NCBI GenBank assembly: GCA_031213475.1
Contig: JARUPZ010000019.1
Span: forward strand, 5,803,357 to 5,867,356
Source: Nereocystis luetkeana
Lineage: Eukaryota > Sar > Phaeophyceae > Laminariales > Laminariaceae
Direction: 5' to 3'
Length of the DNA stretch: 64,000 nt
The position numbers and the translations under genes are program-made. Below the pieces are notes generated by a model. The model was not told the DNA's origin, did no database searches, and worked only from the letters and a program-made list of their open reading frames with translations. Of the stretch, positions 1-59,530 are shown piece by piece (the first letter of the stretch is position 1; each line of letters starts with the position of its first letter).

Positions 1-2524
1 CTATGTGCGGAGTAAAGGTTCCTCACCTGGCACAAATGATCTAACTCAACAACCGGCTGTGGGCGACCACCAAAAAAAAAAACGAAAAAAAACGGTACCC
101 TGGTTGTCTAGCTCACGTAGTGAGCGGCATGTTTTACAGTGTCGTTGCCAACCGACGCCAACCCAATCTATATAAAATAGGGGTGGGGGGTGACATTGGC
201 CGGGCGCCGTCGGGAACGGGTTGAAGAGGATCCACGGACGGGTGGCGTTTCTCACTGTGGGTTTGGCTGTGCCGTATAGCTGGCCGAGGGCGCGTCCTCT
301 CAGCCGGATCGAAATATTTGAAAGGTCGCCAACGAGACAATCCGCGCCAAAGAAAGGCAATCGCGACTACCAGGTATGAAGCATGACGCCGGGACAAAAT
401 CCCGGCAACTGCACCAACGAGCTCATGCAACTGCACCAACTAGATGGAGAAATCTTAGCACGGACAGGCATTCCACCGACATGTTACATTGGGGGTGGCT
501 GTCAGAGGCGGCACGAGGGCGCGGTGAGAGGCTTTCTGCAACTCCACCTCTTGGTACCTCGCGTACTGGCTTGTCTGTACATTTTGTGTGGATTCCGTTG
601 CTATGCCGCAACAAAGGTCATTGCTCCTTTGCCGCGCCCCATCAACATCAGCCGTTCCTGCTTCACTTGCGACGGGCGACCGATCCTTTTACAGCTAACG
701 CAACACTTGAACGCATATCCTGGGAGCTTAAAGGCATAGAGCTGTGATAGGTTTGAAGCAGGGACGAGCATGAAACCGCAAAAATGTGTTACACTGACCT
801 TGGAACCGCGTGGGTCCAACTATACATTACCAGACAGTCGAACAGCAGTACCAGGTATATCAACTATTTATAGTTTTATCCTAGGACCTACGGCACAAAA
901 TAATGCTCTCGTGGCGTCAGAGTGCCCAAAATGTGGATGACCACTTGAAGACATGGTTGTGTTAGAAAAAGGGAAGATGTACAGCAATACTCACTGTAAA
1001 TCCCGCTGCTGCATCTACCTTAAGGATTTCAATATTTCAACGATCAGTTTATTGACTGAGAAACATAATCAACTAGCAGGGTACCATGTTTCTGCCCACC
1101 CCGTGCAAAGACGACGAGTGGCGCTACGATAAAAATTATCATGCCGTCAAGCCGGTGCGGCCCCAGGCGATGCAAATGCCCTCCTGATGATCCAGATGAT
1201 AGTGGTGCAGCGACCCCAGAAACAGTGCTCGGTAGTCTCAGACGATGATGCTGCAACGACCCCAGAAACGATGGTCAACAGCCCCAAACGAGGACATTGC
1301 AGCGACACCAGAAGCGATGTTTCACAGTTGTTAAACAAAGCTGACGTTCAGAGACCCCAGAGGCGATATTCCAGCAGCCCTAAACGAGCGATGATAACGC
1401 ATGAATTCCAGAAGACGTTTCCCCACGCTCATTGAAAAACATTATTTTGTGACCCGATCCCTAAAGACACTTCTCCGGCGATCGCTGCTGCGGCGACATC
1501 GGAAGCTCCGACAGCCCCAAGTTCAAAGCAGTCCTGTGACGATACCGAAAGGTGTTGCTTCGGCAACCCCAAGCGATTGCGTTTGCAGCGGTCCCGTGAA
1601 ACGTATTCCCAGCGACCTCGCGTTGAGGCGGCCTCTGGTGATGCTGATACCCGGCGGCTCCTGTATATGATGCTGATAGTGATGGTGACGATGACGACGC
1701 TGATGATAGTGATGATAATGATGATGATGGTGACGGCGATCCTAGGCAACGATATCGATCTAGCGATTCTACGTGAGTCAATGTTGCTCCTTACTGCAAG
1801 GATTACGGCGCTTTTAGAGCTGGAAGTCGCCGTCGAAGTTGTCGTAGAATTTGATGGCCAGCTTCTCGTCGTTTGTCACCCCTCTTGTCGTCGTTCTTGG
1901 ACGGCACCACGCAGCCGCTCTTCTTGCGGGGCGCCGTCTTCTAGCTCTACCCGGTTCGTCGGTCGATCGGCCTGGCCTGCTTTTCTATCACGGAATTTTT
2001 TCGCGTGGCCATGGTGATGTTGCCGGTCACGTTGGAGCCTCCGGTTCTTGCAGCCCTCTGGTGCTTAGAAATCGAACTTGTCTCGTGCAGCGGGTGCGGT
2101 CTATCGACGATGTAGTACAACGATCCTCAGAAGCTTGCAGCAGCTCCAGATAGATGCCGGCGATCTTTTGGCGGCTCTGTGGAGGAGTAGGCGTTGTTCT
2201 TCGTAAAAAAAAGCTGCACATACATGACGATAATCTCGGCTATGAACCAAGCTCAAGGTTCGTGGTACCACCTACAAATAGGTGATGGGGCCTGTCATGC
2301 AGAAGCGACAGCGTATTCCTTGACATATCATATTTCAGACTGTAGCAACACATAGATCGGGTAAAAATGAGCGGTTGATGCTGAAGAGCGGTTGCTACTG
2401 CGGACCAAGTTTCCCGCGAAGAGATGCGGCTGGTGAGACGACGTAACACCGACAGCAGTACCATCGGATCGAAGGTGAAAACCGCCACCAGAGGTGAGGG
2501 GCTCGGGCACAAATGCCGAGGCGC

Positions 2525-2705
2525 TGGTGGGGACGAGGGTTGTGCATGGCCATATAGTCGTATGACCATAGACCCTCGCATCCCTACAATGCCGGGACGG
2601 AGCACGTTAGGGCTTTCATCGACAGACACTGCTTGCATCAAGCGCGAAGCGCCGTGGGGTGTTGGGCAAGTATCATCAAGGATCAGCTGCATCCTAGACG
2701 CGTTC
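2525..2705 (-). repeat. R3 dispersed repeat
   Basis: On + it reads GTCGTATGACCATAGACC, then CTACAATGCCGGGACGGAGC and GCTGCATCCTAGA. The C-tract end of the family is missing here. Confidence 0.8.
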
Positions 2706-4191
2706 TACTATAGAGGGAGCACATTTCCGCTGAAATATTTCTGAATGACGGGTATCCTTAACCCAAAATCGTCGGAATACCAATCTAGTTTCGAAACACG
2801 ACGTTAGTGAGTACTTGGGCCATGGGATTATTCATCGGGATGCCATTTGAGTTTTTGTTGAAGTCAGTTTTCGGCTTTGGTATGGAGTTCCTCAGGCGAG
2901 GAGCCTCAGAAAAATTAGGGTGACCCTCTATTGTAGAACGCCTCCCTACTAATAATCGCTTGCGAGGCGGGTTTTTCTTACATTGGATGACAGCGTCGAA
3001 CGACAACACTATTAATATTAATAGCTCGCAAAAAAAAGACAATTTCCGAAGGGGCGAGGCAAAGAGCGGTGGGGCCGTGGACTGAAATCAATCCACCTAT
3101 CGCTGCCCATCAGTAATTATTGCGTGCTACGTACATACTAAACAAACATCGGAGAGGCAACGCATACCCACACCGCGGAGAACCGCGAGGAACCGCGATT
3201 GCTTGTCGGACGGCCGCCGGAGTTTAAAGGAGGCGAGGATGACAAACCCACACGAGGAGCTGGGAGCGGGCTTCCGCTCAGATCTATTAATAGCGGTGGC
3301 AGCACCGACTGGTATCATGCGATCCCATGCCTGAGTAAGATTTGGCGGGACCCAGGGCCCAGGAGCTAAAGCACGTAGCAAACAAACGTAGATGTAGAGA
3401 TAGAGAGAGAGAGAGAGAGCGGAAGTTCGTCCCGCTGTGGACGGCTTTTGGTGGTGAAGACACGATTAGTTAATACTCTGCTACATATACTGCAGTCACG
3501 TGACTATGTACGCTAGCCACAGTAGTCACCAGAAGCACCATCAGACCTGGAGCTATTCTGCCCCTGACAAGGCATGGGCTACGCTCTGAGAGCAGGAGCG
3601 GGGCCTCGAGGGTGGGCTCGACTGACTAAGGGAGCGACGGGGATAGGCCGCAGCCTTCGAGGCTCACCGCAGAGGGCGTTAAGGCTTTCAGGTAAGGCTC
3701 GCATTGAGGCGAAGAACCAGAGACTAGGCACGGTGTAAGGCTCAGTCATGCACGCACATCTCGTGGGGAAACTCGGGGAAATTAGAGTGAAATATTTCTT
3801 GGCGGTACCAGGTGCTTGTACTTGCCTTCACGGCGATTGTCGTGTCCAAACATGACACCTTCAGACGGGACTTCCAAAAGAAGAGGGCAAGGGCTGCTTT
3901 CGGCGCGCAGGGAGAGATATATCTTCGCGAAAGACGTGAGGGCGATTGTTTTTATGCCCCTTGATATAGAGGGTTCCAGTCTGAAGGCGTTGTTTTCGGA
4001 CATAACAAATCGCCATTTGGGCAGCGCTCAAGGATCGAAACAGCTCTTAGCTCCTTCAGGACTGCACCCCCGTCGTGGGGACTAAGCAGTTGGAATTAGA
4101 GTCATATTTTGGTTTATGTACAGCGCAGTTCTAGAAGGGGTAAGGCACCCCTCTTCGGGAAAGGGCGTCAAGTTTTATTTCAAGGCGAGCC

Positions 4192-4288
4192 TTAACCCTT
4201 TTAGGGCCGCAGTCCCGATTTAGGGACAAATTACTTAGAATTTGAGTGCTTTGTTCCCTAAACGGGACTGCGGTTCTAAAGGGGTTAA
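4192..4288. mobile_element. MITE-B copy a
   Basis: About 97 bp, nearly a perfect palindrome: TTAACCCTTTTAGGGCCGC on the left, GCGGTTCTAAAGGGGTTAA on the right. Arms contain GCAGTCCCGATTTAGGGAC. The TTAA at both ends is a likely target duplication. Confidence 0.88.
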
Positions 4289-5039
4289 AGGTCAGGGCCT
4301 ACAGTAGATGGGAACCACCTCTGCGCGGTGGTTTGCAGGTCCGTCATAAACAGTAGTATCAACTGCTATTAATAACACACTACCGTAGGTACACCGGTTG
4401 AATTTACTGCCTTCAGAGGGGAAAAAATGACGATTGTACTTTGACGATTACGGCATCGACCACATGAAGGAACATAAGGAGGCATGCTGCTGAGGTAGGG
4501 GATAGAGGATATGCGTCAGGACTGCAATGTAAGGGGCTGCCTTGGCACGCGCGCAAGCACGTTTGGCATTCGTACCGCTGCAGCAGCTTTGCGCTTTTAG
4601 TTCGACGGTTGACAAGATCACGCTCGCCATTTTCTTACTTCGGTATGCTAAAAATCAAGATACATGCGTCCCAAAATGGGCCAAATGGGATATACCGTAG
4701 AACACGCACGCCCGATGCATCACGCAGCTTGTAAAATGGAGTATCAACCCCACTCAATCGGTCGAGCTCACAGCCGACGTATGTGGAATCATTTTTTAAA
4801 AATAGTAGGTCGAAACCTCCCAACCCAGGAGAAGACCTGGATCGGCGCGTGCATGAAGCCTATACGAGTTTACAGTGAATATTGCGGCGACGGGTTGATT
4901 TCATAAATTTGCGTCGCGTGGGACGAAATGCGAAGTGCAGAATCGAGGAGAGGAGGAGGAGGCGTGAACTACGTAACCTGACCTGATCCACGCTAAGCAC
5001 ATGCGCACGGATGCACATTGGATGAGTTTTTCGTGGCAG

Positions 5040-5986: not shown

Positions 5987-7801
5987 TAGCGCTATTATTG
6001 TTTTTATAAAATTATTACAATGAGTACAACCACAGCAGTGCGTTGACGTATGAAAAACTGAATGAAAAGGTGTGGCCGACGAGAAAACACCATCATCACG
6101 ATCACGACAACAACAGAAGATCACGAACGATGCCGCCGTGGAATGCACGTCAGTATAGAAGCATAACATAACAGGGTCAAAGGCCGACCGCGTGGGGTCG
6201 GTGGCGATCGAAAAAATGGAAGGCAACTCTACTCTTCTTGAGGCGGCGGCGCCGCGTCCTGGATGCTCTCAAGGATGTGGCGGGGGGGGGGGGGAGGGTC
6301 GTCCAAGAAGAGGTGCGAGAACGGAACCGCCGACCTACGCTCAGGCAGAGGTCCGGGTTGGTCCACGGATCCCTGCTGAGAGGTGTCGCTGAAAGTGTGG
6401 TATACTGTACCAGGTACCTGGTATGTAGTTAGTTACCTCCCGGTTACGTACGCCTTACGTACGAGGACATACATACTTATCGTAGCTTGTAGCTCGTACC
6501 TGGTATATAGCTGGTGGCTCGTATATAGCTCGTAGCTCGTAGCTTGCACGTGGTAGCTCGTACGTAGATCGTTCGTGTACCGCTTTTGTTGGATGGAGCT
6601 CATTCGCCCGAAGTCCGCGAGTCTGATATTAAAAGAGTGGTAATAACAAATCATCAGCGTTTTTGAAAGATATGATTACTCGTATGTATGAGAAATAGGC
6701 GAACAAAAATGCCCCTGGTGCATGCCCGGCCAACGGTGCACATACCGAAAAAAATGGAACTACGTACGTGCCCTCGATGCAGCAGTGTGGTACGTACGTG
6801 TACGGTGTACGGTATTTATTTGTGATAACTCCAGGTAGAAGGTGGTGTAAGCTCGTAAGGCAGTAGTAGTAGTACTCGGTTCATCGCAGTAAAATAAAAA
6901 CGCTTGGCGTGGTGGAGAGATCCGAGACACGAAGAGCGTTGCTGGTGTATGCCTGGTATATACCTGGTATACCTGGTACTTACATAATCATGTAACACCT
7001 GCTGCTGCTGCAGGCCTACGAATACCCACAGCGAGTAAGAGAGATCGAGATAGAACGAAAAGAAACTAAAGAAAGCACGTCGTCATCCTGTGACCAATAA
7101 ATTGTGTTTGGACTTAACATATCTTGGATCTTTCGAAATTGTACGCCAGTCACTGCAACAGACCTCATGAATCTTAAATCTTTACCTGACACTTTAAACA
7201 GTCAACGACTTTTTTTACGAAAAATAAAACAACTCGCCAGCTCGCCACTCTACTTCGTGCTGCTGTGTAGTCTATTCGCTTGCACCAGCACACCCCAGGC
7301 ATTCTTCTCTGCCCACCTATATTATTTTCTTCATAAATTATTCGAAAGAGCCTTAAATAAAAAAAATGTGTGTGTGCGACCCGGGATGCTTATTATTTGT
7401 TTCCTTCTGCTGCGTACGTACATCATACCTCGTGCCACACAGCAGGATCTCGTGCGGCTGTGCGAACAAAACGAGCTGCTGCTGCTGCTGCTGTTGCTGC
7501 TGCCGCTACTTCACAATCGACCAGGGGGCACAGACCACGTCCGCGAACTTCACAATCTTGGGGCGGGGTGCGGGTGCGTGGCGCGGATCATATCGTACGA
7601 CCGAGAAGAAAGCGAACGAACCTTTTCGTCGCCGCTGCCGGCGGTTGTTGTGTCCGGTCAAACTCTCTCGGCAGCGGCGCGTTGGAAATAGACTGGAAGC
7701 ACGTCATCAACTCAACAACGACAACAAACAGCCCTGGAATAAGCCACACCTACCTACCAAGTTACAAGTAGAGACACAGCAGTCAGTCGGTCGGGCGGAA
7801 T

Positions 7802-8656: not shown

Positions 8657-11600
8657 TCTCTCAACACTTTTTTCATTTCGCAATTAATTTCCTGTCACAC
8701 CAAGCGTGCTGTCATGTATGTACAAATATCTGTGTGATCTACTCGTACGTACCTGGAAGACTACTAATAAGTAGTAATATGACTATCGTGGTTCTTGATT
8801 TTGACTTTTCTTCCGTTCATAATACTAATAAGTTATTTCTCACATAATTTTCTGATGGCATTTTTTTTTTAAATCTCAAATCTTAAAAGTATCCGACGCC
8901 CATGCTGCTGCGCACGGGACCGGCGACCGATTACGCTCGGCAGGAGGTGGAGATCCTACAGCTTTGCAAGATCATCGTGGAGCACGGGCCCGACCTCTTC
9001 TCCCTACACCGCATGGAGCAGCACGCGCCCTTCAGGTGGAGAGTTTACTCGAACCACACGCACGCACGCACGCACGCACGGACGCACGCACGCAAGAACG
9101 CACACGAATTAAAAAAAAAAACGAGGTATCCATCTATGATACATCTGTACGTATATCATGTCGTACCGCCGTACGTACATGCATGTGTACTCGCAGGATG
9201 ATTTTTGACCAACAACAACAACAGGCAAGTACTACTGCTGTACAGGATGCTTTTTTTTTACCGGACTTTTTTCTCGAATACCTGGTATCTTTTTTAGTTT
9301 TTTTAATTATAAAATATCTGTAAAAAAAAATGGGAAAATTCTGCTCATATGACATCCATGGTGGTTGTGGACAAATAATGCGCGACCTGTGATGGCAGTA
9401 TACATATACAACAAGTAAAAATGCAAGCATCCCGCTTTATGATGGGTGGGAGGGCGTGAAGCGGTGTGTGGTGAAAACTCCACAGCCCCCCCTCCCCCCC
9501 CGCCGCTCGCCTCCCCCACGCACCAGTTCACAACCACTAAAAAAGGTAAAGCTGACGCGCGTTTATTAATAGTTAGAAATTGTGAACAACATGTATGTAT
9601 GTAGAAGGGACAAAGGCGCAGCTCGCTGGTGTTTGTTGTGTTTTTTATTGTACGAGTATGTGTTCATCATAATACTCCGAACTTCCTCAAGAAAAAGTCC
9701 TGGAACTGGACACGATGGCGACCTGGTGCGGCACAGATACAAGTATTACTCGTACCAGGTACATATTATTTTACACCTCTGTGCAGACTATATATACATT
9801 TACTGCTGCTATAACGTCAGATCCACTTGCCTTGCGGAGAAAGCAAGCAAGCGTCAAGATGACCACGAGGCTATTTTTAGAAGAAACACCCCGTCACTCA
9901 GACCCACTTGCGGAGCAAGCAAGCTAGCAAGCGTCCTGGTGACCACGAGACTATTTTTATATAGTACCAGTAGCGGCGTGGGCTCCAGGTTCTCGACCTG
10001 TAGACCGTCGCATGGGTATTGCCCCGCACGAAGGTCCCACCATTCGCCGAGGTCGTGGATATCCGTATCTTTTATTATTGTATAACTGCTGCTGCAGCAG
10101 CTAGCTGTGGTCACCCACATTTATTTCCTGGAAAATCTGTTGTCGTCAGAATTGTTCCGTGACAAGAAGTCACTGCAGATTGATGGAATGCAAGGCCCGT
10201 CCCTCGCACACACACACTTACTTCCTCTCCATCATGATGATGCGTCGTTGATGGTCGTTTCGTGGGATCGTCCGTACCGATCCTAAAACACAAACACCTG
10301 GCGAGTCCTATTTAAATAGGGGAAAGTGCCATAGATGTCTAGTCGAACCAGGGGTCCTCCCGACATTTGGCGTCGACGGCACCCCGCAGTATACTCGTAG
10401 TATACTAGGGAATAAAAGGCCCTCCCGCCCCGACGGCGGTCGGGCCAGATTCCAGTAATAATATACCTGGTAGGAGCTATATAATAATAAATAGGTGAGC
10501 CAATACATATAGGATGCACATTAATTGCGGCCCCGAGCTTTAAATTAATGAAAACCCCTTTGTAAGTCACTTTATTATGTAGGACCTCAATACGCGTTAA
10601 TATTATGAATTGTGATATATTTATTTGATGTGCTTGCTCCCTCTCTGAAATCTCACACTGCAACTTTATTAGTCGTTGGTTGCAGCTGTACGATGCAATA
10701 CAATCTGCGGGCATTACGATAAACGCACAGCAGAGGGACCACACTCGGAGTATCGACTATTTTAATTGCCGTATCGAGCAAATTTCGTACTCTGAATGCT
10801 GACTATTAGGGCGCTTCCGGCCTGAACATCGCGAGTGACTGGGAGTGTGAGCAGTACCCAATTTCAAACCTCGAAGTACTGCCTGAACGTTGCGAGTAAG
10901 TGCGAGTGTGAGTAGTACTAAAGATCCAAATGTCACGGGTGCAAGGAGCCCGCAGGATCGGACGCCGAAATATCCGAATGAACGGTCGCCAATATTGTCA
11001 CTTTAATCGAGAGGATGAGGTGTGTTAACCCTTTTAGAACCGCAGTCCCGATTTGGGGACAAACTACTTGAAATTTGACTGGATTGTCCCCAAAATGAAA
11101 CTGCAGTTCTAAAAGGGTTAAAACCGAGGTGTCAGAGCAGAGGTCAGACGACCGTGCTGGTAGGATAATGAAATGAAAACGATGTCGTCGACGGCACCCC
11201 GCAGTATAGTATATACCTCGCTATACGTGTACGTATGTTTGTCAATTTTTCGCAATTTTGCCGAAAACATTTCTTTTTGTGCTGTTTAATAGCACTTTTC
11301 GGCAAAACACCAAGTAAGTACTCGGATACGGAAAAGCCCGGCCGGACACATTGACCTAGGTCTCGGCGCGTTCCGTGCACTCTGGAGCGCGTGGCGGGCG
11401 CTCAAAGTTTTTTTTTTTCCGGCGGGAGTGGATAAGACGATTTCTCTGGTTCCGATACGAAAGGCCTTTTTTTGTGCGTACGTATCGGTATCATGTTGTC
11501 TGTTTTCTGAACGTATGACATAATACAAGTTTTGTGATTTTACCCCCAGGGCAGAGACTTTGAGCGCGCTTACGGGGGGCGTGCGTTCATACCTCAACAT

Positions 11601-14600
11601 TGCCGGTTGATCCCAATATTTGGGAATAAAGCAAAAAATATGTTCGAGAAAATACTGCTGTCCGTACTGCGTACACTCGCAGTATGTCGGGTTTTTTGTA
11701 TTCCAGATACTGCGAGTACTCGCAATATTTTGAGATTCTTCTGTAGTGTTACGGGGGACCATAGTTAATAGGTCCAAATACTGTTAGTAAAAATAGCCAA
11801 GTATATAGGTGTCTGTATTTTTTACCGTAGGCCCTATTTAATATGGTCCCCCGGAATACTACTTCAGATACTACTGCGGATGCTTTCGGGCTCGCACTAA
11901 TTCGGGGTTCGCTACTTACTGCTGCTGTTAGTGGATACTCCCTGTTGTGCTTCAAGTATCTCGGGGTTCTGTACCGTGGGTACTGCGAGTACCATTTATT
12001 ACGGGGGACATTAGTAATTAGGACCAAATGTTGTTGTTAAAAATAGGTAAATATATAGGTTTTTGTGTGTGCCGTAGGTCCTATTTACTGTGGTCCCCCG
12101 TAATAGTCTTCTAACAGTATTTCGTCCGTTGCTATTAATATAGTGTTCGTACTGATACATACCCTCAATATGCCCAGTATACTTCGAGTATGAAGTATAC
12201 TTGGACCCCCTGTGCACCGTGTCGACAATTCTCAGGCCCATTGTTCGGCACTAAACACTCCTATTACGGGGGAACATAGTATATAGGACCAAATATTGTT
12301 AGTAAAAATTGTTAAATATATACCAGGTAAGTTTTTATGCATACCATAGGTCCTATTAACGATGGTCCCCCGTAATAGATAGTCGCACGAGTGGGAGTTG
12401 AAACAAATTACTTTCGCTGGGGACACCTCGAGTACTTCGTATTAATGGAGCACTGACAGTATTTCGAGATATGCGCTGCGAGTACTCCCAGTATCTCGAG
12501 GTTCTGTACTGCGGATATTGCCTGTACTCCAAATATTTCGTGTTTCGATACTGCGGGTACATACTTGCCTGTGCTCTCGGGGTTCGGCACTGCTCATACT
12601 CTCATTACTCTCAGTATTTGGGCCTTCTCAGTACTCGCAGTATTTTGGCCGCCAGTACTCCGATACTCTCAGTACTCGGACTACGATTTGTTGTCGAGCA
12701 TTTATCTGTGAAACCTTCATGTTACCCGGAGCACCAAGAAAGAAAACGTTCGTTTTGGGGAGCATATATTGTATGCGCTGTACCTTACTCAGTCGGTCAC
12801 AAAGTATTATGGCGCAACCTCGACCTCGCGCAACTTTTCTGTACTTATGTTCACGCCGCATACATTGAAGAAGATCGCCGCGAGTCATCTGTTCAGAACC
12901 AATACCCACTCACCGGTACCCTATTTTATATTAGTATTGTATGTAGCAATGTAGAAATGATCCCACACCTTTTATTTCCGCAAACAATATACATCTTGCC
13001 TCGAAAGTAAGTGTTTGTGTTCTTCACATTATTGGTGGGTGGATGCAGCTACCACTTCTACAGACCCAGGTGTACAGGAATTCATAAGAGTAGTAGTCCG
13101 CTCTTGCGCCACTCCCCTAGGCACCTCCCGGAGATGAACCTTGTAGTAGGTATAGAGGAACCACAATGGCAGCCACATCTCCTTGCTTTTCCTGCCTTTC
13201 TCTGTTTTGCTCCGTATTATATTGTGCTGTTCAGGCGTTTCTCATGGCGTGTTACCTGTACGCTGTGTACGTACACTACATCAATCAGTAGCCTGTACTC
13301 TCAATACCACGTCACGTCCATAGCCGTATACCGGAGGGTAAACACTCCTTAAGGGATATCATTGTATCCGAAGGGTACACTCACTGAAGGATATCATTGT
13401 AAAACAGTGAAGACCGGGTTTTTTTTTCAGTTGGTTTAACAATCTGTGAGCTCGGATCTTTGGGGGTGTTTTTGACTTCAAAGTTGCGTAGCGCGGTCTA
13501 CACTTCGGAATCGTCGTCCGCAATTGAGAAATTTCCTGGTTCGATGCAAACGCGGCGCAGCCGCGTTTATGACCCGTTTCGGCTTCGGTTTGGGGTCAGG
13601 GCTGGGGCCCATCTTAACGAGATTTTTTTTTATGATACTCCGCCAAACTTTTTTTCGTTGTATTTGATTTGCATCTGATTGGTCGAAAAGTGAATCACCC
13701 ATCAGGCATTTTGATGTTTGATTCGAATTGAAACAAAAGAAACGAATTCGACTAGAAGTCTTTGGGACTTCTTTTGCGCTTCGTGTTATTCAAATCGGGG
13801 AGTTCGTCCAACTCGACGTGGCATGTTCCTGAAACCGAAGCAAGCCACGCAAACTTGAGCCGTGTCGTCGACTGCTTCACAGGTGAGATCCACCATTCCC
13901 GAGAGACAGGGCCACCGGAGCAGCCGCAGCGCGAGGTCCGACGGTCCCTAGCACAGAGTAGACCATCGGCGGCGCCTCAAAAATTACAAGGCCGTCGCAA
14001 ACCCAGTTTTCTATCCCTCTTTGCCTCGCGAACCACACGAGCACCGACCAGGTCACGACTTCGCTCAGAAAATCGATCGCTGTATCCCCGTCGCTGCTGC
14101 CTGCGTGGGGCTTCGGGGCTGCGCCAACCACCCAAGACATCCCAAGAGCGATAGCCTCTTCGGCGGTGCCGGCAAAAACAACCGGCCGCTGCCCGCGGCG
14201 CCCCGGGGAGGACGCGGGCCGTCGCTCGCCTCGTTGGTTGCCTTCTGGTGTTTGTTGACGCTTGTGCGCTATTCGATCTCAAAAAATTATTCGCTATTCC
14301 TCGATAGGGATCCAAGGCATATTTTCACGAAATTCTGTTCGAATCAAATCTTCTTTTTTTTCCGATTCGATTGTCATGAAAAAGGTTTCTCTTTAAGATG
14401 GGCCCCTAGGGCCAAAACAGGGGTTGGGTTGGGTCTTCGTCCGTACTCTGATCCCAACAGAAAGCAAAATATTTGAACAGTCTTCCAACCTAAAGATCCG
14501 AGCTCACAGATTGTAGTACACTTGAGCTCTTTTTTTTTAATTATTATTCATTTTCTTCTACTTCGCGCACGCGGACACGACGAGCGAGTCCCCCGGTTTA

Positions 14601-17301: not shown

Positions 17302-18278
17302 AGGGGGGCGGGGCGGAGCGGGGCGGGGAAAGGGGGACGAGGGGGAGGGTGAAGGTGGAGCGGCGGGCCGGCGGGGGGGGGGGGGTGAAACGGCCTTGAA
17401 GCTCCATCTACACGTTCACGTGGACGTTTCAACAAGTGTGTGAGTAGTTTTTGCAGCTCTCAAACAAGTAGATCAGCTCGCATTTTTTTCTCATTACGTA
17501 TAGTCTACTATAGCATGGGGCTCTCTATCTTTTCCCCCTCCTTTTGGACTGCTGTGCCCCCACGTTTTGGTGGACAAACAACCTGAAATTAGTATAGGAT
17601 CAAGTCTTGGCCGCGGCTAAAGGTTCGGTTAAAAGGCCAAACCAAGTAGATATTCGTGTCTGCGGTATAGATATAGATACCGGTACTTTCGTCGGCCGGT
17701 TTACATGCAAACCTTAAAAGGAATTTTCGTGTGTGTGTGTGTGTGTTTTCAAGCGTTTTTGGTGACTTGTCTTGAACCCCCCCACCCGCGACGCTACAGA
17801 GCGCACACGCCTTCCCCGGCCCGGTTGTGCACGCGCGCCCGTTCCTCCCCTCTGTAAAAGCTCGAAAGGTTCGACGATGGCATGCCTAAAACCGGTGAAA
17901 ATTCTCGGTCGGCGTTCTTTTGCAGTCGTTTGCTCGCGCGCACTGCAATGATTGCTCCTCTTTCGTGTGTGTTTGTGTGTGTGTGTGTGTGTTTTTTTTT
18001 GTCAGTCGTCAAAGTCATACCGTATTTTTTTTTATGGTAACAGTACGGACGAGTAGTTTGCGTGAAAATAGGTGGGTGTCTACTTTATTACTACTTTGTA
18101 GTCTGATGCCTGATACCAGGTACACGAGACCGTAGGGCTCCCGGTAACAGCCGGCAAGGTATTCTTGTGTCGTTTTTTGTCAGGCAGGCACTGCTGTTTT
18201 TTAAGGGTGACTAAAACCAAGCATGCATGTGCGCCTACCAGAGTATGTTGTCGACGTGATGGCCCATAGACGGTCCTG

Positions 18279-21695: not shown

Positions 21696-22326
21696 GGGCC
21701 GGGGGGGGGGGGGGGGGGGGGGGGGGGAAGCTGTACTCGGGATGGGGGGGGGGGGGGGGGCGCGGCTACGTGGAACTTTTGATTGTACCGCATATGGAGG
21801 GGCGCTGGACGTGTAGACGCTCGCTTGAACCAAGATTTTGATTTTCTTCTTCTTCTTCTGTACTTGTAAAATGTGAACCGCTGTATACTACGAGGTACAT
21901 TATGTCGGAAAATAGCTCATTTTTTTTCTTCTTATGATTTATTAGGGCGAGGTGAGGTTATTTTATCCGGGTGCGCACAGCGATACAGACAGGGCGCCCT
22001 CTTTTCGACCAGCTCTTGGACCCACGAGTGGTTTCTGCCGGATAGCCTGCGGCACGTAAAGGGGGTGTATTTATAGTAGGACTTACCGTACGGACTTGCT
22101 CGATGTGATGTTGTGTCCCTGGACATATTATTCGAAGTACCAGGTACGATTTTAGTCGCTCGCTTGGCATAGCTGTCGTGTACGCGGACCCATTCTTTGA
22201 AGTACCAGGTACGATTTAGTTGCTCGCTTCGGCATTGATGTAGTGTATGCGGACCCAATCCGCGATAAAGTTAGGTTTAGCGTTCGGTGTTTGAGGTGAC
22301 ATTTGCCCCCAAAGGGTAGGCTGGGG

Positions 22327-22372: not shown

Positions 22373-23061
22373 GCGACCGTTGGGCAGCCACATACGAGGT
22401 GCACCAGCACTCTTTGCGTGTCAATAATCCAACGTTTTTTTTTTGTTTTGTCATTCTTCGTTCTACATCGAGCATCGCAGAAACAATCCTTTCCCTGATT
22501 TTTGTTTTGATCCTATCATCGTTTTTAGACTCCTCAACTCGCCAGCGGCATGCGAGTTTCCACGCCCGATGACCTCGTGGACATGCCATATATATATGCT
22601 CCTTACGACTTGTACGTACGTCAGTATATGTTCTTCGCATGTCGCGCATACTCAGCTCAGCCGTGGTCACAGGTATCTCCTCCCCTCTCTCCCCCGCCCC
22701 CCGTGTACGGATTTTACTTGCCGCGGATAGGCAGGGTGCAACGCCCCCGGTGCCGTCCTCGATTGCTATACTGCTCGTCGCTTCTCATCGAGCTTTGCTA
22801 GCTCGCGCTCTGTGAATACCACGTCCCCTTCCCCTTCCCCTTCACCTATTGATAGTACCGCCTCATTACGCCCACCACAGCGACGCAAGAGAGTGGGGGC
22901 CGACCGCAGGATTTAGTCAACCGATCAATGTATTCTCAGTTCGTAATTGTAAAAGTGGAGTCTCTATTCTGGTACTACTTCTCGCCTCTTTTTTGTTTGC
23001 CCGAAGACGGAAAATAAATAATTACCTCTATTTCCACTATATAAAAAATATATATACCTGG

Positions 23062-23064
<3 letters not shown>

Positions 23065-24030: not shown

Positions 24031-24296
24031 ATGATGAGAGCCTACTTATCTATTACCAGGTATGCTACTACTATCATATTACCCTTACATATATGTCTAT
24101 TATTTTATAGTACGATCACGAGTAGTATAGTGTTGATTACTTTGTAACCGTCGTGCGTACAAGCGCAATACATCCAAGAAACCCCGCAGATCACTGCTGC
24201 TGTGTGCCCCCACCGCAGATCTGTCACTTTTCGTCATTCCCACTCTTCTAGTATAACAATATTAGGCTGTGAAAGAGTCTGGTGCATCATCACTAC

Positions 24297-24419
24297 TCTT
24301 GCGGGGGATCATATCAAATACCTGGTAGAACCTACGGTCCATGAAAAAACTTACCTGGTATATATTTCGCTATTTTTACCAACAATATTTGGTCCTATTT
24401 ACTATGCCCCCCCGTAATA
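24297..24419 (-). mobile_element. MITE-A copy 4 (reversed, degenerate, with motif)
   Basis: The right end ACTATGCCCCCCCGTAATA is intact and the left end is degraded (TTGCGGGGGATCATA). The reversed core ACCAACAATATTTGGTCC is clear. Two TACCTGGTA sites are inside (24319, 24352); the second corresponds to the insertion site used in copies 3, 7 and 13. Confidence 0.75.
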
Positions 24420-26694
24420 CTAGCAGCACGAAAAAGTCTAATTCGCATCAACTCCAAGACGAAGAGGAATTCGCTTTTACTTTCCAATCCTCTGACTGGT
24501 ACAGACATATATTATTATGACAATGTATGTTCTGTACAGACATTACATGACAAATAAATGTATGTTCTGTCTCCAGTCGTCTGTCGATCACTTTGCTATA
24601 CCGTCGTATGTTTCGTCTCTCCGAAAAATCAGAAAATAAACAAATAAATCTCTAAAAAAAAATAATGGAGGTTAATCATCCTGTCTATTTTGATGTCGGG
24701 ACCATTCAGCCTATCTATGTATATGAGTTGCTCCACTCTCGGTTTGATGGCTTCTCCTCGGGATACAGCAGGGAATGAAGCAACGACGCGTCCCCACGTT
24801 ATTGTATTATAGCTTATTATTCGTCTCCCCTATCTATGTCAGAAAAAAAATACCTATTATTTCTTGCAAGCTGTACCTACTACTACTGATCCACCACCGC
24901 CTGGACTCTGCATGACGTTATGATAGCATGCTTCGTATAATAAGAAGTGTGTGTCTTTCCGTGCGTAGGGACGGGCGGGCTTCCGGCTTCCATCGTCTCG
25001 CTCGCAGCCGGAGCCGTGAGCCGTGGGTTTTTCTTAGAGGGGAGGGGAGGCATCCTGTGATACACAGATATTGGCAGACAACGTGATTTCCCGTACCAGG
25101 TATACATTACCGCCGTATGGACCAGGCAAACCACGACCTACTGATGTCTGTTGGGGAATGGGGCGTCCTGCTCCCACCGTGCTATCGTACTGCTGTACTG
25201 GCATACCACTCTGTCCCGTAATATAGTAACCGTATTCAACAATGAGGCGCGCGAGTGCGAAGCGCGAGCATTTTGTTCTTGGTTTTCCAAGGTAAAAAAA
25301 AGCAGAAGTTCAGTCTGAGCCAAACCCCGCCTGCTGGGGTGCCGTCTGTGCCGGTGCCGACTGGTCTCCCTCCACACTCGCAACTCTCACTGCGACTTCA
25401 ACAATGAAAAAGACGAGCAAACCGAAAACAACGCTCGAATGCTTTTCATCGAGGGCGATAACAATGAATTATTCTCAGTTTGTAAAACTGAAGTCTCTAT
25501 TCTGGTAATTAATTGCAGATCTGTCTGTCTGTCTGTCCGCATCCCTTTTTTTTCGAACTTTTATTACTTCGTTTCAATGATCGATATACCAGGTATTTGT
25601 TTGTTACAGATGATATTCATAGGTTTAACTTCGCTCTACATCTCGGAGGATATGGTTGTTGTGTGGTGTTGTTCCCTGATCACCTAGATTTTGTTTTCTC
25701 CAGTTTTTGCTCCACTAAAAACGCGAGAGTACGTACGTGAGAGTAGGTACGTACGAAGGTAACATTTTTTTGTCACGTCTGACAAAGTACCCGAGAATCA
25801 TTCATGATTCATGCTCCAGATATCTATGTATGAACACGTCAAGGTATAAAGGTGTATCAGGTATTCCTCTACTCAGAGTGTGACGCAAGACCGTCCGGTA
25901 CAGGCGGTGAGAGGCATGACATCCGGTTGCCCGTCTACATACTCAAAACCCTTATTCCGGTGTGGTTGGGCGCTTTCATGCCTGCCTTCGTTCTGCGCTT
26001 GAATTTTAGGCCCGACATAGCACAAAAAAAGCTGAGATATGTACCGGCTGTACGATATCTAACAAAATAAAACTACTGTAAATCATAATTTTTCAGCAAA
26101 AAAAAAACCCGATCGCCCGGTACACGTCATTTTCATTTTTTAGTGGTCTTCTGTTTTCGGCGGCAGAGGGCCTGCCTGCTGGGCCGGCTGCGTCGGTCAT
26201 GCCGTCGCGCGGTCTTGTCTCACTTGAACTGCAAGTAGGTAAGGGTGGGGGGGGGTGGGCTCTTCCAACCGTTTTCGTTCGTGAAAAACTGCTCGTCCAA
26301 TTCACAGAAAAAGAAAGAAGATATCCGAACAGTCGAAAACGACCACCACGGAATGAAAATCATTGCCGAGCGGTCTAGTGACTGCTGTACGCAATACTAT
26401 GTACCTGGTACATCATACCTGGTAAATATCTGCATCCAAATCCGAAATCCCTGGTTTTATGATGTTTAGTCCTGTACCCTCCCCCCCCCTCCCGGATCCC
26501 GGACCACTTTTTACACAAAGGTCTTATCAAGACACCTTTTTATGACCTGTGTCACACAAAAATGCAGCAGCTTTACTCGAAGCGCAAAAGACAGAATCTC
26601 GTGTTTTGCTTCACCCAAGGTCAGTGACTGCTTTCGGCTTACCCTCTTGAACAGAAATATATCCTATATGCCGGTATGTACGTACGTACGTACG

Positions 26695-32900: not shown

Positions 32901-35900
32901 TCATCAACAGAAATACGTTGGGAAGCCTCTCTCCCCCCCCGTTTGGGGCCTGTATATTAAAAGCAGGAGGGGCCACCGTCAAATGTGTCAACCCCAGACC
33001 CGGGGGCGGTAGATGCCATCGACCAAGTTGTGGTCAGCCGGTCAGCAGCCGCCCAAGCCCCCCCCCCCCGTCACCAGTGAAGAGCACTGAGCTCGTACAG
33101 CAGGGGGCGCGATCGTTCTCAGCGCTCGACTTTTTCCGGCACGGGGAAAAAAAAAAAGAGGTCGTCGATACCACCGTACGTACGTACACACCGCGGTGTT
33201 TTCAGAAACAAGAAAAAAAGAAAAAGAAGAAGAAGAAGAAAACAAAAAAAACATAATCTGGTGGCGAGACCGCCCGCGCCTTGCGAAAAAATAGAAAATG
33301 TTTCGAATATTGATAATACAGTAGCTTCGAATAATGTTATTCATAGCGCCGTTGCCGTTCGTTGCCGACACAAAAAAAAAAAAACACACACACACACACA
33401 TCGAGCTGTGAAAAACGATCGTCCACCCCCCTGCGCTGTGCGCTCTCTCACTTTGCGGCAAGCGTCGAGTAGCCGCCGACGGCAGCAGCGCAGCCCCACC
33501 CACGGTTGGCCTCGGGCGAGTGCGTGCAACGTGGCGGAACAAATAATTCGCTGGACCAACCATTGCACTGAACGAACAGGCGGCGCGGGGAAACTCGCCA
33601 GACTAAAAAAATCTGTCCGTTGTTTTGGCGTTTTCTCGTTTTTATTGATTTGCTCGTTCGAACGTCAGAGTTAGTGTTGTTGCTTGGGCATAACGCGCCA
33701 CTCGGGGGTCTAAACTATTACGGGGTACCATAGTAAATAGGACCAAATATTGTTAGTAAAAATAGCAATACATGTAGGTGTTTGTGTGTACCATAGGTCC
33801 TATTTACTATGGTCCCCCGTAATAATGCATGTTCATGAACTGTCAACAACTATTGATATACTCGGATATATATAGCATATATATATTTTTTTTCGTTTTG
33901 CGTTCCTTGCGTTTGCGACATAAAATAATTAATTTCAAACCCCTCCCACATTTACAGTTACATGAATTGGTAAATGTACGTAAACAAGACATGATACCTG
34001 GTACCTTGTGATGATCATACCGATATGCACCTTATAAAATGTAAATGTATTATACTATTAACACATTAATACCAGTACTGTAGACTTAGACAAAAAAAAA
34101 ACTGGTACCACATGTAAAGACATGTACACATACATGGCTGGGATTCCACTCCCATGACACCCATGACTGGGGGCACTCGTATACCAGGTATATGCGAGTG
34201 GTGAATGTTAAAATTAATGGCTTTTCCGTTTCGACCGCGTCACGTACCATTACGGTGGGACATTACTACAGTAATCAGGACCAAATACCTTCGTAAAAAT
34301 ACTGGACTATATAGTTTTTTTGTGTGTGTGTGATGGGTCCTGATTAATATGGCCCCACGCAATAGATGTAGCCATTTGAATACGTGGGGTAAAAAGCCAC
34401 TCCTGGGTGCTGGCCCACCCCGCAAGATCCGGGTGGTCTGGGAGCACCCAACACCCTCTCCTTAACATCGAAAGGTCGGAGACAGAGAGAAGCCGCGACA
34501 GGAATGTGGTCGAGTTTACGACAGCAGACAGCCCACCGCGGAAGAACAAACAACATGCCCAGCCAAACGTGCTTTCAAAACAACATGCTCAGCAAAACGT
34601 GCTCTGTGCTTCGAGCATTCGTTCTTCCGGGGAAAGCTCTTGTAAAGCCTCGAACACGCTCCTATCGCGCCTTCCCCCCCCCCCCCCCCCCCCCTACGCT
34701 CCAAGGCAAGTACCAGGTACGCCGTAGTGTCCGACCCTCTTCACCACCGCGCTATCGACGACGAGGAAAAAAAGGCGACGGACCCCCAACCAAAACCCCA
34801 AAAAAACTTGGTGAAATGGCTCAAGCCTGGGATTGAGAAAAAATGACACCACCGCCGTGGACAGGAATGTCCCCGTAAGGACCGTTGGCGTATGCCATAT
34901 ATACGAATATCAAACGGTCCTTCCACCTGTGGCGAGGAGCGGTATATACGCAATATCGTCACTCTTGCTTTACTTTCCAGCTCAACTTGCTGCACGTATA
35001 TAGCAGGGGGTGTCCAGCTCAAACCTCCAGGAGATTTTTCTTCCGGCTCAACTCGTGTGGGCACTATTAATACTCTTTGAGCAGGAGGCTTTACCATCAG
35101 CCAGCGACCTTCTGAACAAAAAAAAGGCGTGGCTAAAGGTGTCGTCCGGTTCCCCCCCCCCCCCCCTCCTCCGCGGGTATATGTTGTTGTTCTCACACTA
35201 ACTCATCGCCACAAAACAATGCAGTCCGTGATCGCAGGACCGGCTCCAATAACTCTGGAGTGGAAGAAATACCTTGGTAAAAATAAAACGAAAGCAAAGA
35301 ATAGTACACATGATAACTGAAGCACATCTACACCTCAGACTAAAAACAAAAAATGAGATCCGCGCACGTACGTATCAGATGCATGCGGTACGCTGTACAA
35401 GTTGCCACAGAAACCGAGAAGACCACATACTACCCAGAAAAAATAGAACGGATGGAGAAAACAACTCGACGTCCAGAAATCGAAATCGAAAAAAATCACA
35501 AATCAAAAAGGGAAGGAAAAAAGAAAAAGAAAAAAAGAAGGTTCAATTCAGGAAAGAAAAGCAAGACATCGTGAAAGGAAACACACAAAATAATGCGCAT
35601 ATTTTCGCAGATTGCAGGCTCGCACGCTACGCGAGGGGTGTAGAACAGAGATAAGAACAAAAGGACAAAGATACATATATATACAATACACCAGGTACCT
35701 GGTATCATATAAACCTGCCTTCCTTTTTATCGCGGATACGTATTAATAGAGTTCGGCTTTCGCGGTCGCTCGTCGCCATGACGACAACAATTTCCATGAT
35801 TTTTGTTGTGCTTGCGGAGAAGAAACTATTGCGGGGGGCCATAGTTAACAGGACCAAATATTGTTAGTAAAAATGGTTAAACATATAGGTTTTTATGTAT

Positions 35901-38900: not shown

Positions 38901-41900
38901 CACACTTCTCGCTCTCTTACTCAAAGGCTTATCTCGTACTAATACTTAAAAACAATAAAACATCGCCAAATACATATACGCATGCCCGCATCCATCCATA
39001 CCCCCTACAGCCAGGCCACATATCGAGAGTCGACCCACGTGCCGCACCCGCGAGTCGAATCCGTGGGTCAAGATAAACGATCTCGCGGGGTCAAGGTGAC
39101 CCGACCCGCATGAAACCCGTGTCGCACGGGTCAATCGGAAGGTGGCGGGTCGGGTGGGGTCGGGTCAGGAGGTTTTGAAGTCTCGCGGGTGGGGTCGGGT
39201 CGGGTCAAGAGAGTTTCAAATCTCACGGGTCGGGTCGAGTCAAGAGGGTTTAAAAATCTCGCCCGTCGGGTCCGGTCAAGCCAACACCCCCCAAATTTTT
39301 CGCCGGTCGGGTCGGGTCAGCTGACCCGATCCGACCCTACCCGATCCGTGAGGTTTGACCTGACCCGCGAAAAGCCCCGGTAATTTTACGTTGCACGAGT
39401 ATGCGCATAGATTTACTTTCATATTTTCCCTGAGCGTGCTCGGTTGGTACACCCCTGGCCTCTCACAGAGCTCCCACTTGAACACCGCCTCCTTCTACAA
39501 CTTGCCGGCGAGAGACTTTTTTACCTTTCCGGTTTCGTGTGCGAGCGTGTACCCAGAGCACGGCAACGCGGGCGTGCACGGTGCCATCGCGGGTGTCAGC
39601 GGGCGCTGGCGGATAGAGGGGGGGGGTTGCAGGGAGCGCGGTCGCCGTTTTCGTGGCTAGGCGTCGCGTGGACATCGAGGCACGAGGGAAGCACGAATGG
39701 GCTCTGTCTGGCCCCCTGATGTTGGGTTGAATATCATCCGTATGTACTGAGTCTAAACGGGTCGTTTTTGGTTGCCAAATAATATTCAAGCGGTGCTCAT
39801 TTTTGCCAACAAGCCGCAGTTCAGAGAGAGAGAGAGAGCTCCGCGCCTGAGCACCAATAGTATCGAGCTGGCGGAAGAGGGTCGCGGTGAGCACCGTCCT
39901 TCACGCTAGACGGGGCGATAGACTTCACTGGGGCAGAGAGGGATGAAAGCTTTACCCGGACCGAATCGGTGGCGAGGTGGTCGCGAGAGGGGCGGGCAGC
40001 GTACGAGGCTTAGAGAAGCTCTGATGTTCGTTTTTTTTTAGCGGCGCAAGGTGTTCCAAAATCAGACGGGAAGTAATGATATCAGAGAGGACGGGGATTT
40101 TTTTTTTTTTTAATTCAAACTTGCGTTTTCATGTGATTATTTTATTGCGGTGCTAACACTGCTGTGCCGTGCTTTTTCTTTCGTACATATCAAAAGAAGT
40201 ATGTGGAAGTATGTACGTACACGCCGCGTCCGGGTTGTTTTCTTGGATGGAGCATGGAGCTCTTGGCATTTTTTGCAAGTCGCCTGTTTGCACCTTTTTT
40301 TCTGCACCCTCTGTTCCGTTTCTGTTCTGTTCCGTTACATTCTTCCTCCTGAGCGAGTCTAGCGGGCGGAACCGCCCGCTACGCGGTGCGCCTTATATCT
40401 CGATATAATACGAACAAATGCTGAGGACCCTGAGAGACGACCGGAGGGTTACGGGTTACATAAAGGCATAAAGGCCACTCAAGCAGAGATAAACACAGGC
40501 ATCATATTACGTGACACTTGGAAACTGGAAACATCAGACTTGCCGTCTGAACGTGATGCATGCGGAATAAGTTATCCCTTTTAGGACTGCAGCCCCCTTA
40601 TCGGAACAAACTACTCAAATTTCAAGTAGTTTGTCTCCAAAACGGGACTGCGGTTCTCAAAGGGTTTTGATCTGCTGTGTGGGGTGGGGAGACACATGAT
40701 ACTGCCTGTAGAATAGAGGAAATATGTGTCATTCGGTACCGGTACCTGGTACTTGGTGAACTTGAGAAGTGAACGATTTCCACACATTGGACAGATAGAT
40801 TATCTAAAGATACATCATCTACAGATATATCATCTACAGACAGATCATCTACGTAGATCCTAACCCGCCGTTAGGATATACCTGGTATCGTACAGGAGCC
40901 GTAGTACAGGTGCAACCCAGGACGACTTGTGCTACTACTGCTGTAGATCACGGAGTTTTACGGCTCCCACCCGGCAACATGGGCTACTACTGCTGTACAT
41001 ACAGGCCATACAGATCATAAATCTACCTGCCCTGAAGGATCTAGCTCATGCATCAAGTGGGAATGGTCTATCTGATCTGTCCGACTCAGGTAGGTTTATT
41101 TAGACAGAAGTCTACTGGCCACCGGGCATAAATACAATACGTACCGGGTTCACAACTAAGTAGTAGTCTCCGCCATGCCACGGGTCGACGGGACTCCGAC
41201 AAAGGGATACGTACGATACACCTGGTAGCCATGGCCAGTGATAGCCGATAGTCTGAACTGCTGCAGGAAGGCAAAGCCCGCTCTGCACTGCTGTACAGGA
41301 TCGTGGTCAGATTGGAGATTGAGGTGTTGCCTGCGTATCATTTCTGTCCGACGATGTAAGGACTGTTTTTGATATTAACATGAAGATATAACGGTCATTA
41401 CATTTCCGGACACAGCAGTGGTATATATCGCCGCGCAGGTACGATATGCCAAAGCGAACAGCATTACTGCTGTCCAGGTATTGGCTGCCAGTCGCCCTAC
41501 CCCTTGGTTTGTAGTAGAAAGATAGTCGAAGGGTGGAGGGTAGAGGAGTATGATGAGATGATAAGAGGGGGTGCCTATAATAGTACGTGTCCACCCTTGT
41601 CGCACCTGCGACGCTTCTGCTCTGCGCGAAGACACAATTGACGAACACTCCCTGCCCGCGACGCATGCCACCCTCGATGAAAGAAGTGCACTCGTCCAAC
41701 CGCACCAACAAGTTTTCCGAGGGGAGGTCTAGAACAGGCACTTCCAGATAGGTGAACCCGCTTCCGTTGTTGTTGCCGATAGTGTTGCAGCTGTCGCCTT
41801 CTTCGCCGTCATTATCACGCCCCTCTAGAGGCTCCTCCCCTCCAACCTTGTCCCGATGAAACGCAGGAGTGCCGACGCAAACGATTCTTGAGACACCGTG

Positions 41901-42416: not shown

Positions 42417-55522
<13,106 letters not shown>

Positions 55523-58272: not shown

Positions 58273-58369
58273 TTAACCCTTTTAGAACCGCAGTCCCGTT
58301 TGGGGACAAAACTACTTGAAATTTGACTGGTTTGTCCCCAGAACGGGACTGCGGTTCTAAAAGGGTTAA
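58273..58369. mobile_element. MITE-B copy j (near consensus)
   Basis: Both arms pair almost completely, with TTAACCCTTTTAGAACCGC and its complement at the ends. The first member of a five-copy cluster. Confidence 0.92.
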
Positions 58370-58405
58370 CCCCGAGGGGGCGATTTCTCTCGGTACTCCC
58401 GCCTT

Positions 58406-58519: not shown

Positions 58520-58574
58520 GGCCGGTTTCGGCCTTTTCCCGAGCGATTCCTCCCGGTTTCGGCGTTGTCCCGAG

Positions 58575-58691
58575 TCAACCCTTTCAGGGCAAAGTGCAGC
58601 AGTCAGTCCCGTTTTGGGGACAAACCAGTCAAATTCCAAGTAATTTGTTCCCAAAACGGGACTGACTGCAGTGCGTACTGAAAAGGCTTAA
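58575..58691. mobile_element. MITE-B copy l
   Basis: Left TCAACCCTTTCAGGGC, right TACTGAAAAGGCTTAA. The arms are lengthened by a symmetrical GCAGTCAGTCCC / GGGACTGACTGC, so the palindrome was kept while it grew. Confidence 0.8.
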
Positions 58692-59314
58692 GGCGCGTGT
58701 GGTCTCAAATGGAGACGAGGCAAAAGTAGCTATAAGGCAGAGGCTCGACTGCCTTGTTGCGGGGTACCTACCCACCGCTGTACGAACAATCAGATTCTAA
58801 ACCGGGATTGTGGACCTGACCAGAGTGCTGCGAGGTACTAGTGGGCACGTGGCGGTGCGTACTTTGCGCGAAGCAGCCTAGGCACACGACTGCCGCAGGC
58901 GGTATCATCGTGCCGTTATTTTTCGTCTGCTAAGAGGGGTAGTAGTAGACCAGGCGTAGTATCATGTTGTTGTAGTCAGTCGTAGTCCTACTACTGTAGC
59001 ACCGTGTTGGTCGGTGTACCATGCGTGTGTAGTTTGTTTCGTGTGACATTTTTTTCATATACGGAGTACTACATAGGATGGGATGGGAAATCTATTTCAC
59101 GTGTATTAGCCGTGTCCGCTCCTTCTTCTGCTGCGCTGAAGGAGCTTGCTTTTTGTTGCTGCGTCGTGAGGGTCAATATACCGTGCCTTTTGCGTAGTAT
59201 ACTGGTCGCATTGCTTCGTTCGCCATTCTTGTTTCTTGTTTCGTACCGGTAGTTTTTCGCCTGTGTTTCTGTTTGCTCATCCTCCGGCGGAGCCAGCGGT
59301 GAAAACAAAGCCTA

Positions 59315-59413
59315 ATAAACCCTTTTTTGTTTGATCCGCAGCCCCCTTTTGGGTTGGGGACGAAATCACTCGAATTTCAAACAGGTTGTTCCCAAGACGG
59401 GACTGCAGCCTCC
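59315..59413. mobile_element. MITE-B copy m (cut by MITE-A copy 13)
   Basis: The left arm TAAACCCTTTTTTGTTTG and the loop are present. The right arm runs to GACTGCAGCCTCC and is then interrupted by MITE-A. A possible remnant of its end (ATAATAAGGGT) follows MITE-A. Confidence 0.72.
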
Positions 59414-59530
59414 TATTGCGGGGGGACCATAGTTAATAGGACCAAATATTTTTAGTAAAAATGGTTAAATATATACCAGGTAGGTGTTTATGTATACCAT
59501 AGGTCCTATTGACTATGGCCCCCCGTTATA
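59414..59530 (+). mobile_element. MITE-A copy 13 (with motif; inserted in a MITE-B)
   Basis: Ends TATTGCGGGGGGACCATAG and TATGGCCCCCCGTTATA. The middle reads AAATATATACCAGGTAGG. It breaks into the right arm of the MITE-B copy at 59315. Confidence 0.88.

Follow-up and report, generated by a model that had tools for sequence, protein, structure and literature searches.

A dispersed nine-base word in the brown alga Nereocystis luetkeana as a probable excision footprint of a TA-targeting element

Why should one nine-base word recur 41 times in 64 kb of DNA, when about 0.5 copies are expected? The word is TACC(A/T)GGTA, written here as TACCWGGTA with W for A or T, and the DNA is a 64,000-nucleotide stretch of Nereocystis luetkeana (contig 19, positions 5803357-5867356, of the 465,085,209-bp genome), which we call the window. 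A sequence-only reading of the window had put the word at about 80 times chance, and this was right: all 41 reported starts are exact, there is no further copy, and Markov models of order 0 to 3 predict 0.42-0.62. It had also proposed a genome-wide count against background, which came out far above that of a control, with 182,395 places for the word and 1,744 for a reversed control pattern. At about 1 per 2.5 kb, the density of TACCWGGTA is therefore a property of the whole genome.

Our answer is that the word is very probably the excision footprint of some TA-targeting element. It is probably that of a cut-and-paste family resembling IS630-Tc1-mariner, with MITE4, a family of miniature inverted-repeat transposable elements (MITEs) with CCACTC ends, as the best candidate parent. 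Excision footprints are already known; the novelty lies in their number, in a uniform product of five bases, in the clustering and in how few parents there are. Among the matches listed in our literature search, no paper describes the word, the MITE ends, or brown-algal or genome-wide excision footprints in the parts of the texts available; subscription journals and preprints were outside its scope.

Once simple repeats are set aside, TACCWGGTA appears to be the commonest 9-base word in the window, and the centre base is never C or G (0 of 41). A flank test found the contexts of 32 of the 41 copies to be mutually unrelated, which speaks against one larger repeat as the source. The earlier statement that the copies are not parts of such a repeat thus stands for most of them, and fails for five words within four copies of a second family, MITE1, and for two in a tandem duplication. 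Words also lie close together: five neighbouring words are no more than 15 bp apart, against 0.85 with random placement at RTAY sites (P 0.0025). Genome-wide, TACCWGGN{30,60}CCWGGTA matches 11,679 places and its control 458, and we read these as mainly pairs of words. A 69-bp unit that recurs among the matches listed proved to be part of a longer repeat. On viral contigs close word pairs look near chance by rough arithmetic, again among the matches listed.

The word as an insertion at TA

Twelve copies of MITE1 in the window, about 110 bp long, could be aligned. The word stands at the same TA in four and is missing from eight, the difference being 7 bp, and one copy bears an additional word at a site where the 11 others are empty. 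Seven more near-complete copies and one fragment, from another 200 kb, are all without it. A split supported at 94% separates some of the four occupied copies from the others, which makes at least two events likely, although the alignment is short.

Beyond this family we looked for spanning relatives, with at least 75% identity over at least 80 bp, and found one for 27 of the 100 words in 264 kb. In 14 of these cases at least one relative is missing exactly 7 bp; for one double word the missing stretch is 14 bp. Four of the remainder have only relatives that share the word, and eight gave other or mixed results. Control TA-N5-TA sites numbered 530, of which 167 had a spanning relative and seven of the 167 showed a 7-bp gap (the 117 ungapped control sites include identical relatives, so that they cannot be set against ungapped relatives lacking the word). 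Because several of the 14 cases are one event in related copies (the C1:61224 family and MITE1), we count about eight independent loci. In a larger set, to which a high-copy repeat was added, the 7-bp gap appears in 18 of 60 words with relatives. In one copy of that repeat (L163) two 7-bp gains are private when nine copies are aligned, one of the nine being diverged at the second site.

The exact 7-bp gain relative to empty relatives indicates that TA becomes TA-CCWGG-TA, i.e. that the word is an insertion. Point mutation is unsupported as the main route of origin, as word-less relatives without a gap were found for one of the 27 words (C1:93507, whose relatives read TACCACGTA) and ungapped differing relatives for five of the 60.

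Target preference and decay

If the word marks insertions, its surroundings should be read as a target. Symmetrised flanks of the window words have W at -7 in 72 of 82 sides (P 5e-11) and a purine (R) at -1 in 70 of 82, with A at -6 and A at -3 each in 44 of 82. Removal of MITE and clustered words leaves W at -7 in 41/46 (P 3e-7) and R at -1 in 40/46 (P 3e-4), weakens A at -6 (P 0.02) and takes A at -3 out of significance (P 0.07). An independent 200 kb gave W at -7 in 102 of 118 sides (P 4e-15), A at -6 in 53 (P 3e-7), R at -1 in 92 (P 5e-6) and A at -3 in 40 (P 0.02). All of these P values assume that the two sides of a word are independent. A palindromic preference around the target TA is present in the window and in the independent 200 kb, and the choice of A or T at the centre is not clearly linked by strand to the flanks.

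When the MITE words are left out of its training set, the profile ranks the occupied MITE TAs at the 93rd-95th percentile of TAs; within the MITE they are not first, ranking 2-4 of 13-19. The flanks of TACWGTA, of TACGAGTA and of TATTAATA, a second word taken up below, do not match the TACCWGGTA profile, and those of TACCGGTA have only R at -1 in common with it. As a target, a half-word (TACCWGG beside its TA) falls at the 84th-90th percentile, and this could explain scars sitting beside scars.

The words also decay. The earlier remark that many single-base variants occur is weakly borne out in the window itself, where 19 were found against roughly 14 expected (27 variants at about 0.5 each); over 260 kb there are 93 against 51.3. 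As a group these variants carry part of the flank signature. About 42 decayed words to 100 intact ones would correspond to a mean divergence very roughly estimated at 4-5% per site. The excess of variants with a partial flank signature means that the words age like inherited neutral scars, and the same excess does not fit a scar made anew in each generation by programmed DNA elimination.

Decay and insertion together bear on the idea that TACCWGGTA is a DNA-binding or CCWGG-methylation site that arose by point mutation and was kept by selection. The near-perfect palindrome, the W centre and the symmetric flanks would suit such a site, as would the survival of intact words in certain diverged repeats. 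However, a gap of exactly 7 bp is far commoner here than at control sites and contradicts the idea at most tested sites, and the excess of one-base variants with part of the flank signature is what neutral decay predicts. We consider selection of this kind very improbable.

Candidate parent elements

A scan for facing pairs found MITE4, a short family with terminal inverted repeats (TIRs) whose ends read TA followed by CCACTC (TIR TA-CCACTCTGTCCGGAAAT). Genome-wide, 907+883 = 1,790 places match TACCACTCYGTGCGGAAAT within two mismatches, against 7+8 for the control, which is a minimum, since diverged ends escape the pattern. From the 100 places listed we fetched 60 ends, with 42 distinct flanks, or 36 under stricter distinctness. 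As the search pattern contained TA, the fetched ends do not prove it; the copies read individually show TA on both sides and also have terminal inverted repeats.

The second word, TATTAATA, occurs 45 times in 264 kb, where about 4.6 are expected, and 15 times in the window. Among its 13 loci with spanning relatives, five show a 6-bp gain at TA, and two of these are a single site in one repeat. Its flanks prefer T at -3, A at -2 and C at -1, a preference shared by the insertion sites of MITE1, a family with ends TA followed by TTACGGGGG (TA-TTACGG). C stands at -1 in 48 of 90 sides of the word and in 14 of 26 MITE1 ends, the latter not thinned for related copies, with a background of 0.21. MITE1 is a likely source of the TATTAATA scars, judged on these flanks. 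A TTA overhang would pair with itself as TTAA. MITE1 DNA has no exact match in viral or prokaryote sequence collections, and two weak Rfam matches on MITE copies are below the curators' cut-offs.

Two word-element pairs within one genome provide an internal control. With the 36 MITE4 flanks there is a fit to the TACCWGGTA profile (P 0.003) and none to that of TATTAATA (P 0.56), whereas MITE1 ends show the reverse (P 0.37 for TACCWGGTA, below 5e-5 for TATTAATA). Between profiles, the correlation is 0.40 and 0.44 when the pairs are matched, and 0.00 and -0.01 when they are crossed. Leaving out three MITE4 ends that abut a word (L183, L185, L195) gives P 0.003-0.011.

A further word, TACGAGTA/TACTCGTA, is about five-fold enriched in the window (14 against 2.7 expected; 66 in all fetched sequence). 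A 6-bp gap in two of its 21 loci with relatives suggests that it may be a third type of scar.

How might MITE4 leave TACCWGGTA behind? The element would insert at TA and duplicate it. On leaving, the transposase would cut three bases inside each end, producing 3' overhangs ending in CCA, which could meet tip to tip with an A:A mismatch. Fill-in and repair of the mismatch to A or T would then yield TA-CC(A/T)GG-TA, a net gain of 7 bp. Trimming of the CCA overhangs would give TACCGGTA, and full fill-in TACCATGGTA. Over about 260 kb we counted 100 TACCWGGTA (2.2 expected), 16 TACCGGTA (3.6 expected), four TACCATGGTA (0.32 expected) and no TACCTAGGTA. An overhang with A at its tip predicts the presence of TACCGGTA and TACCATGGTA and the lack of TACCTAGGTA. 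One copy has a 6-bp CCGGTA gain beside a word. Between the TAs lie five bases in TACCWGGTA, and four in TACCGGTA and TATTAATA. A half-word followed by TA, being a good target, may allow scars to seed further neighbouring scars. In this account the 7-bp gain at TA, the target profile, the decay, the MITE4 family and the fit of its flanks are observed, and we infer the excision itself, the transposase, the overhang chemistry and the seeding.

The uniform product could also come from a different TA-targeting element, now rare or lost, with CCWGG ends and a 5-base overhang. Overhangs reading CCAGG would form four base pairs around a single mismatch and so account for the uniformity, and a lost parent would suit the 83 half-words in 264 kb, none of which gave an element end with a common extension. 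The fit of the MITE4 flanks to the scar profile and the presence of TACCATGGTA, both predicted by a CCA overhang, speak for MITE4 instead, and CCAGGCCTGG between TAs was found 0 times in 264 kb. We regard such a different element as unlikely. TIR elements beginning with CCWGG were sought through half-words and facing pairs, and none was convincing: a 29-bp TACCTGG...CCAGGTA at C1:28357 is a single case, and a palindrome at C1:84707 runs on beyond the word and does not mark an element boundary.

The scans made in 264 kb found no full element beside the words, and the insertions are copy-specific within similar repeats. Both would also be expected of a minute 7-bp unit that spreads by itself, or of a transposon-free repair process that adds CCWGG at broken TA sites. 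We know of no enzyme that does either. Such a process is at odds with the target profile shared with a family of TIR elements, and with the second word, TATTAATA, which pairs likewise with a second TIR family, and we think it improbable. Of the three suggestions in the sequence-only reading (a tiny insertion unit, a binding or methylation site, and a scar of repair or excision), the last is supported by the exact 7-bp gain at TA, the target profile in common with a TIR family and the neutral-looking decay.

Several observations weigh against excision of MITE4 as the source. Besides the few ungapped relatives given above for TACCWGGTA, ungapped differing relatives occur at four of the 13 TATTAATA loci. 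The centre base is G in two of 102 words in 264 kb, and in the diverged C1:61224 repeat family the word is intact in five of six copies, the sixth being empty, which is more constant than simple decay would give. The fit of the MITE4 flanks is partial: taken singly, only A at -3 and W at -7 reach significance, and R at -1 (26/42) and A at -6 (13/42) do not. Scars (182,395) outnumber the MITE4 ends found (1,790) by about 100 to 1. The 83 half-words compare with about 64 by arithmetic, an excess that decayed words could explain, and as they have no common extension, no parent end has been caught beside the words. Footprints of IS630-Tc1-mariner elements typically have 2-4 bp between the TAs, a range that is not defining (PMC7913693, as far as the available text goes), and a 5-base footprint lies outside it.

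The transposase searches add to these points. The Tc1-type model DDE_3 has 0 matches in the genome, its controls being positive in 3 of 14 genomes, and the mariner model Transposase_1 also has 0, with controls silent everywhere. The pogo-type model DDE_1 has 28 matches, 15 of them without an internal stop, with controls silent. MITE4 ends are absent from 3.4 kb around each of two of these 28 loci, although they could lie outside. None of these three profile searches tied a transposase to the MITE4 family.

The imbalance between scars and parents may itself be informative. We suggest tentatively, and with considerable doubt, that this is a hit-and-run transposon whose copies are almost always excised again, leaving about two hundred scars per recognised element copy and scars that seed neighbours, and that the host may have a system, possibly built on a domesticated pogo-type transposase, that removes TA-flanked elements from its germ line. 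If this is true, the genome is a dated log of landings. Footprints are usually met singly, and here one probable footprint has 182,395 copies. If they are scars, the landings and departures of a transposon can be counted along a lineage, its target preference can be read without the element, the outcome of repair can be measured over some 10^5 natural breaks, and it becomes possible to ask why so few elements remain.

Other features and comparison with known systems

The copies of the word in the window, with the MITE copies and an example of the second word, are collected in Table 1.

Table 1. Positions of words and MITE copies in the window
Feature	Position	Strand	Basis
Word 1, TACCAGGTA	368..376	.	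exact match
Word 2, TACCAGGTA	849..857	.	exact match
Words 3-4, TACCAGGTACCTGGTA, one TA common to both	6408..6423	.	exact match
Word 5, TACCTGGTA	6497..6505	.	exact match
Words 6-7, adjacent (6961, 6970); one-base variant TGCCTGGTA at 6950	6961..6978	.	exact match
Word 8	9279..9287	.	exact match
Word 9	9753..9761	.	exact match
Word 10	10464..10472	.	exact match
Word 11, central site of MITE1 copy 12261-12378; 8/12 aligned copies without 7 bp here	12321..12329	.	alignment
Word 12	18114..18122	.	exact match
Word 13, in 65-bp tandem duplication	22138..22146	.	exact match, repeat scan
Word 14, second unit of same duplication	22203..22211	.	exact match, repeat scan
Word 15	23055..23063	.	exact match
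Word 16	24054..24062	.	exact match
Word 17, second word in MITE1 copy 24419r; 11 other aligned copies empty here	24319..24327	.	alignment
Word 18, central MITE1 site of copy 24419r	24352..24360	.	alignment
Word 19; two relatives in G000:C1 without exactly 7 bp	25094..25102	.	relative comparison
Word 20	25587..25595	.	exact match
Word 21	26402..26410	.	exact match
Word 22	26416..26424	.	exact match
Word 23	31149..31157	.	exact match
Word 24	32244..32252	.	exact match
Word 25	32505..32513	.	exact match
Word 26, central site of MITE1 copy 32662-32782	32722..32730	.	alignment
Word 27	33995..34003	.	exact match
Word 28	34182..34190	.	exact match
Word 29	34711..34719	.	exact match
Word 30, TA in common with one-base variant at 35689	35696..35704	.	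exact match
Word 31, TA in common with TACCGGTA at 40737	40743..40751	.	exact match
Word 32	40879..40887	.	exact match
Word 33	42860..42868	.	exact match
Word 34	44811..44819	.	exact match
Word 35	45358..45366	.	exact match
Word 36	46335..46343	.	exact match
Words 37-39, cluster (50001, 50015, 50030)	50001..50038	.	exact match
Word 40	50563..50571	.	exact match
Word 41, central site of MITE1 copy 59413-59531	59474..59482	.	alignment
MITE4 copy (TIR TA-CCACTCTGTCCGGAAAT)	30130..30216	-	facing-pair scan, copy reading
MITE4-like copy	41336..41423	-	copy reading; far end by eye
MITE4-like copy	53222..53303	-	copy reading; far end by eye
MITE4-like copy, first TA changed	54927..55005	+	copy reading; ends by eye
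Example of second scar word, TATTAATA	4367..4374	.	word count
MITE1 copy (TIR TA-TTACGGGGGACC), occupied/empty test bed	12261..12378	+	one of 12 aligned
Other aligned MITE1 copies	11749, 11997, 24419(-), 27758, 30797(-), 32662, 33715, 35826, 36055, 51713, 59413		

The only gene recognised in the window encodes a dual-specificity phosphatase on the minus strand, with open reading frames at 41307-42173 and 28885-30456. They align to different stretches of the Pfam domain, with E 9e-6 and 2e-4, and neither reaches the curated cut-off. A protein search with a hand-spliced query returns brown-algal sequences, at 58% over half the query in Laminaria digitata and at about 45% in several Ectocarpus. 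From its C-terminal zinc motif we take the gene to be of YVH1/DUSP12 type. An intron of about 11 kb, in which MITEs and words lie, appears to split it (28885-42173, minus). The earlier statement that no word lies in a predicted exon was checked for these two reading frames, which are word-free.

An 8-base word, ACAGCAGT, is also dispersed, with 33 window copies (842, 2452, 44819, 47062 and others) in 31 unrelated contexts against 3.7 expected, and shows no clear insertion pattern among relatives. A second palindromic MITE, TTAA followed by CCCTTTTAG, lies at 4193-4286, 5891-5985, 11027-11120, 58274-58372 and elsewhere, with TTAA ends that make it look like piggyBac. At 43041-43974 lies a 230-bp tandem repeat in 4.1 copies that are 97% alike. 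Outside the window, long very-low-complexity open frames at a contig start (G000:C1:51-3779, L141) were read as telomere repeats.

Among known systems, the internal eliminated sequences of Paramecium are TA-bounded segments that are removed in great numbers and leave a single TA; here, in contrast, a 9-bp word remains, decays and so is inherited. Minos has a TA target and an overhang-derived footprint. Its bases differ from those of TACCWGGTA, and the Minos-resembling TACGAGTA is common here and not tied to a parent. Sleeping Beauty and Tc1 leave TAC(A/T)GTA, with the same W centre, at a ANNTANNT-like target, though with three bases between the TAs where we find five, and DDE_3 has no match in this genome. 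In Sleeping Beauty the first cut falls three bases inside the element and the footprint is the 3' overhang (PMC7827188, in the part of the text available); the likeness thus extends to the TA target, the inferred cut three bases inside and the overhang-derived footprint. Loss of the Stowaway MITEs of grasses, which like ours are short and TA-flanked, leaves 1-4 bp of TIR fragments between duplicated TAs (PMC1925063, in its accessible sections). There, as far as those sections go, several kinds of footprint occur at single loci, whereas here there is one product, in 182,395 copies.

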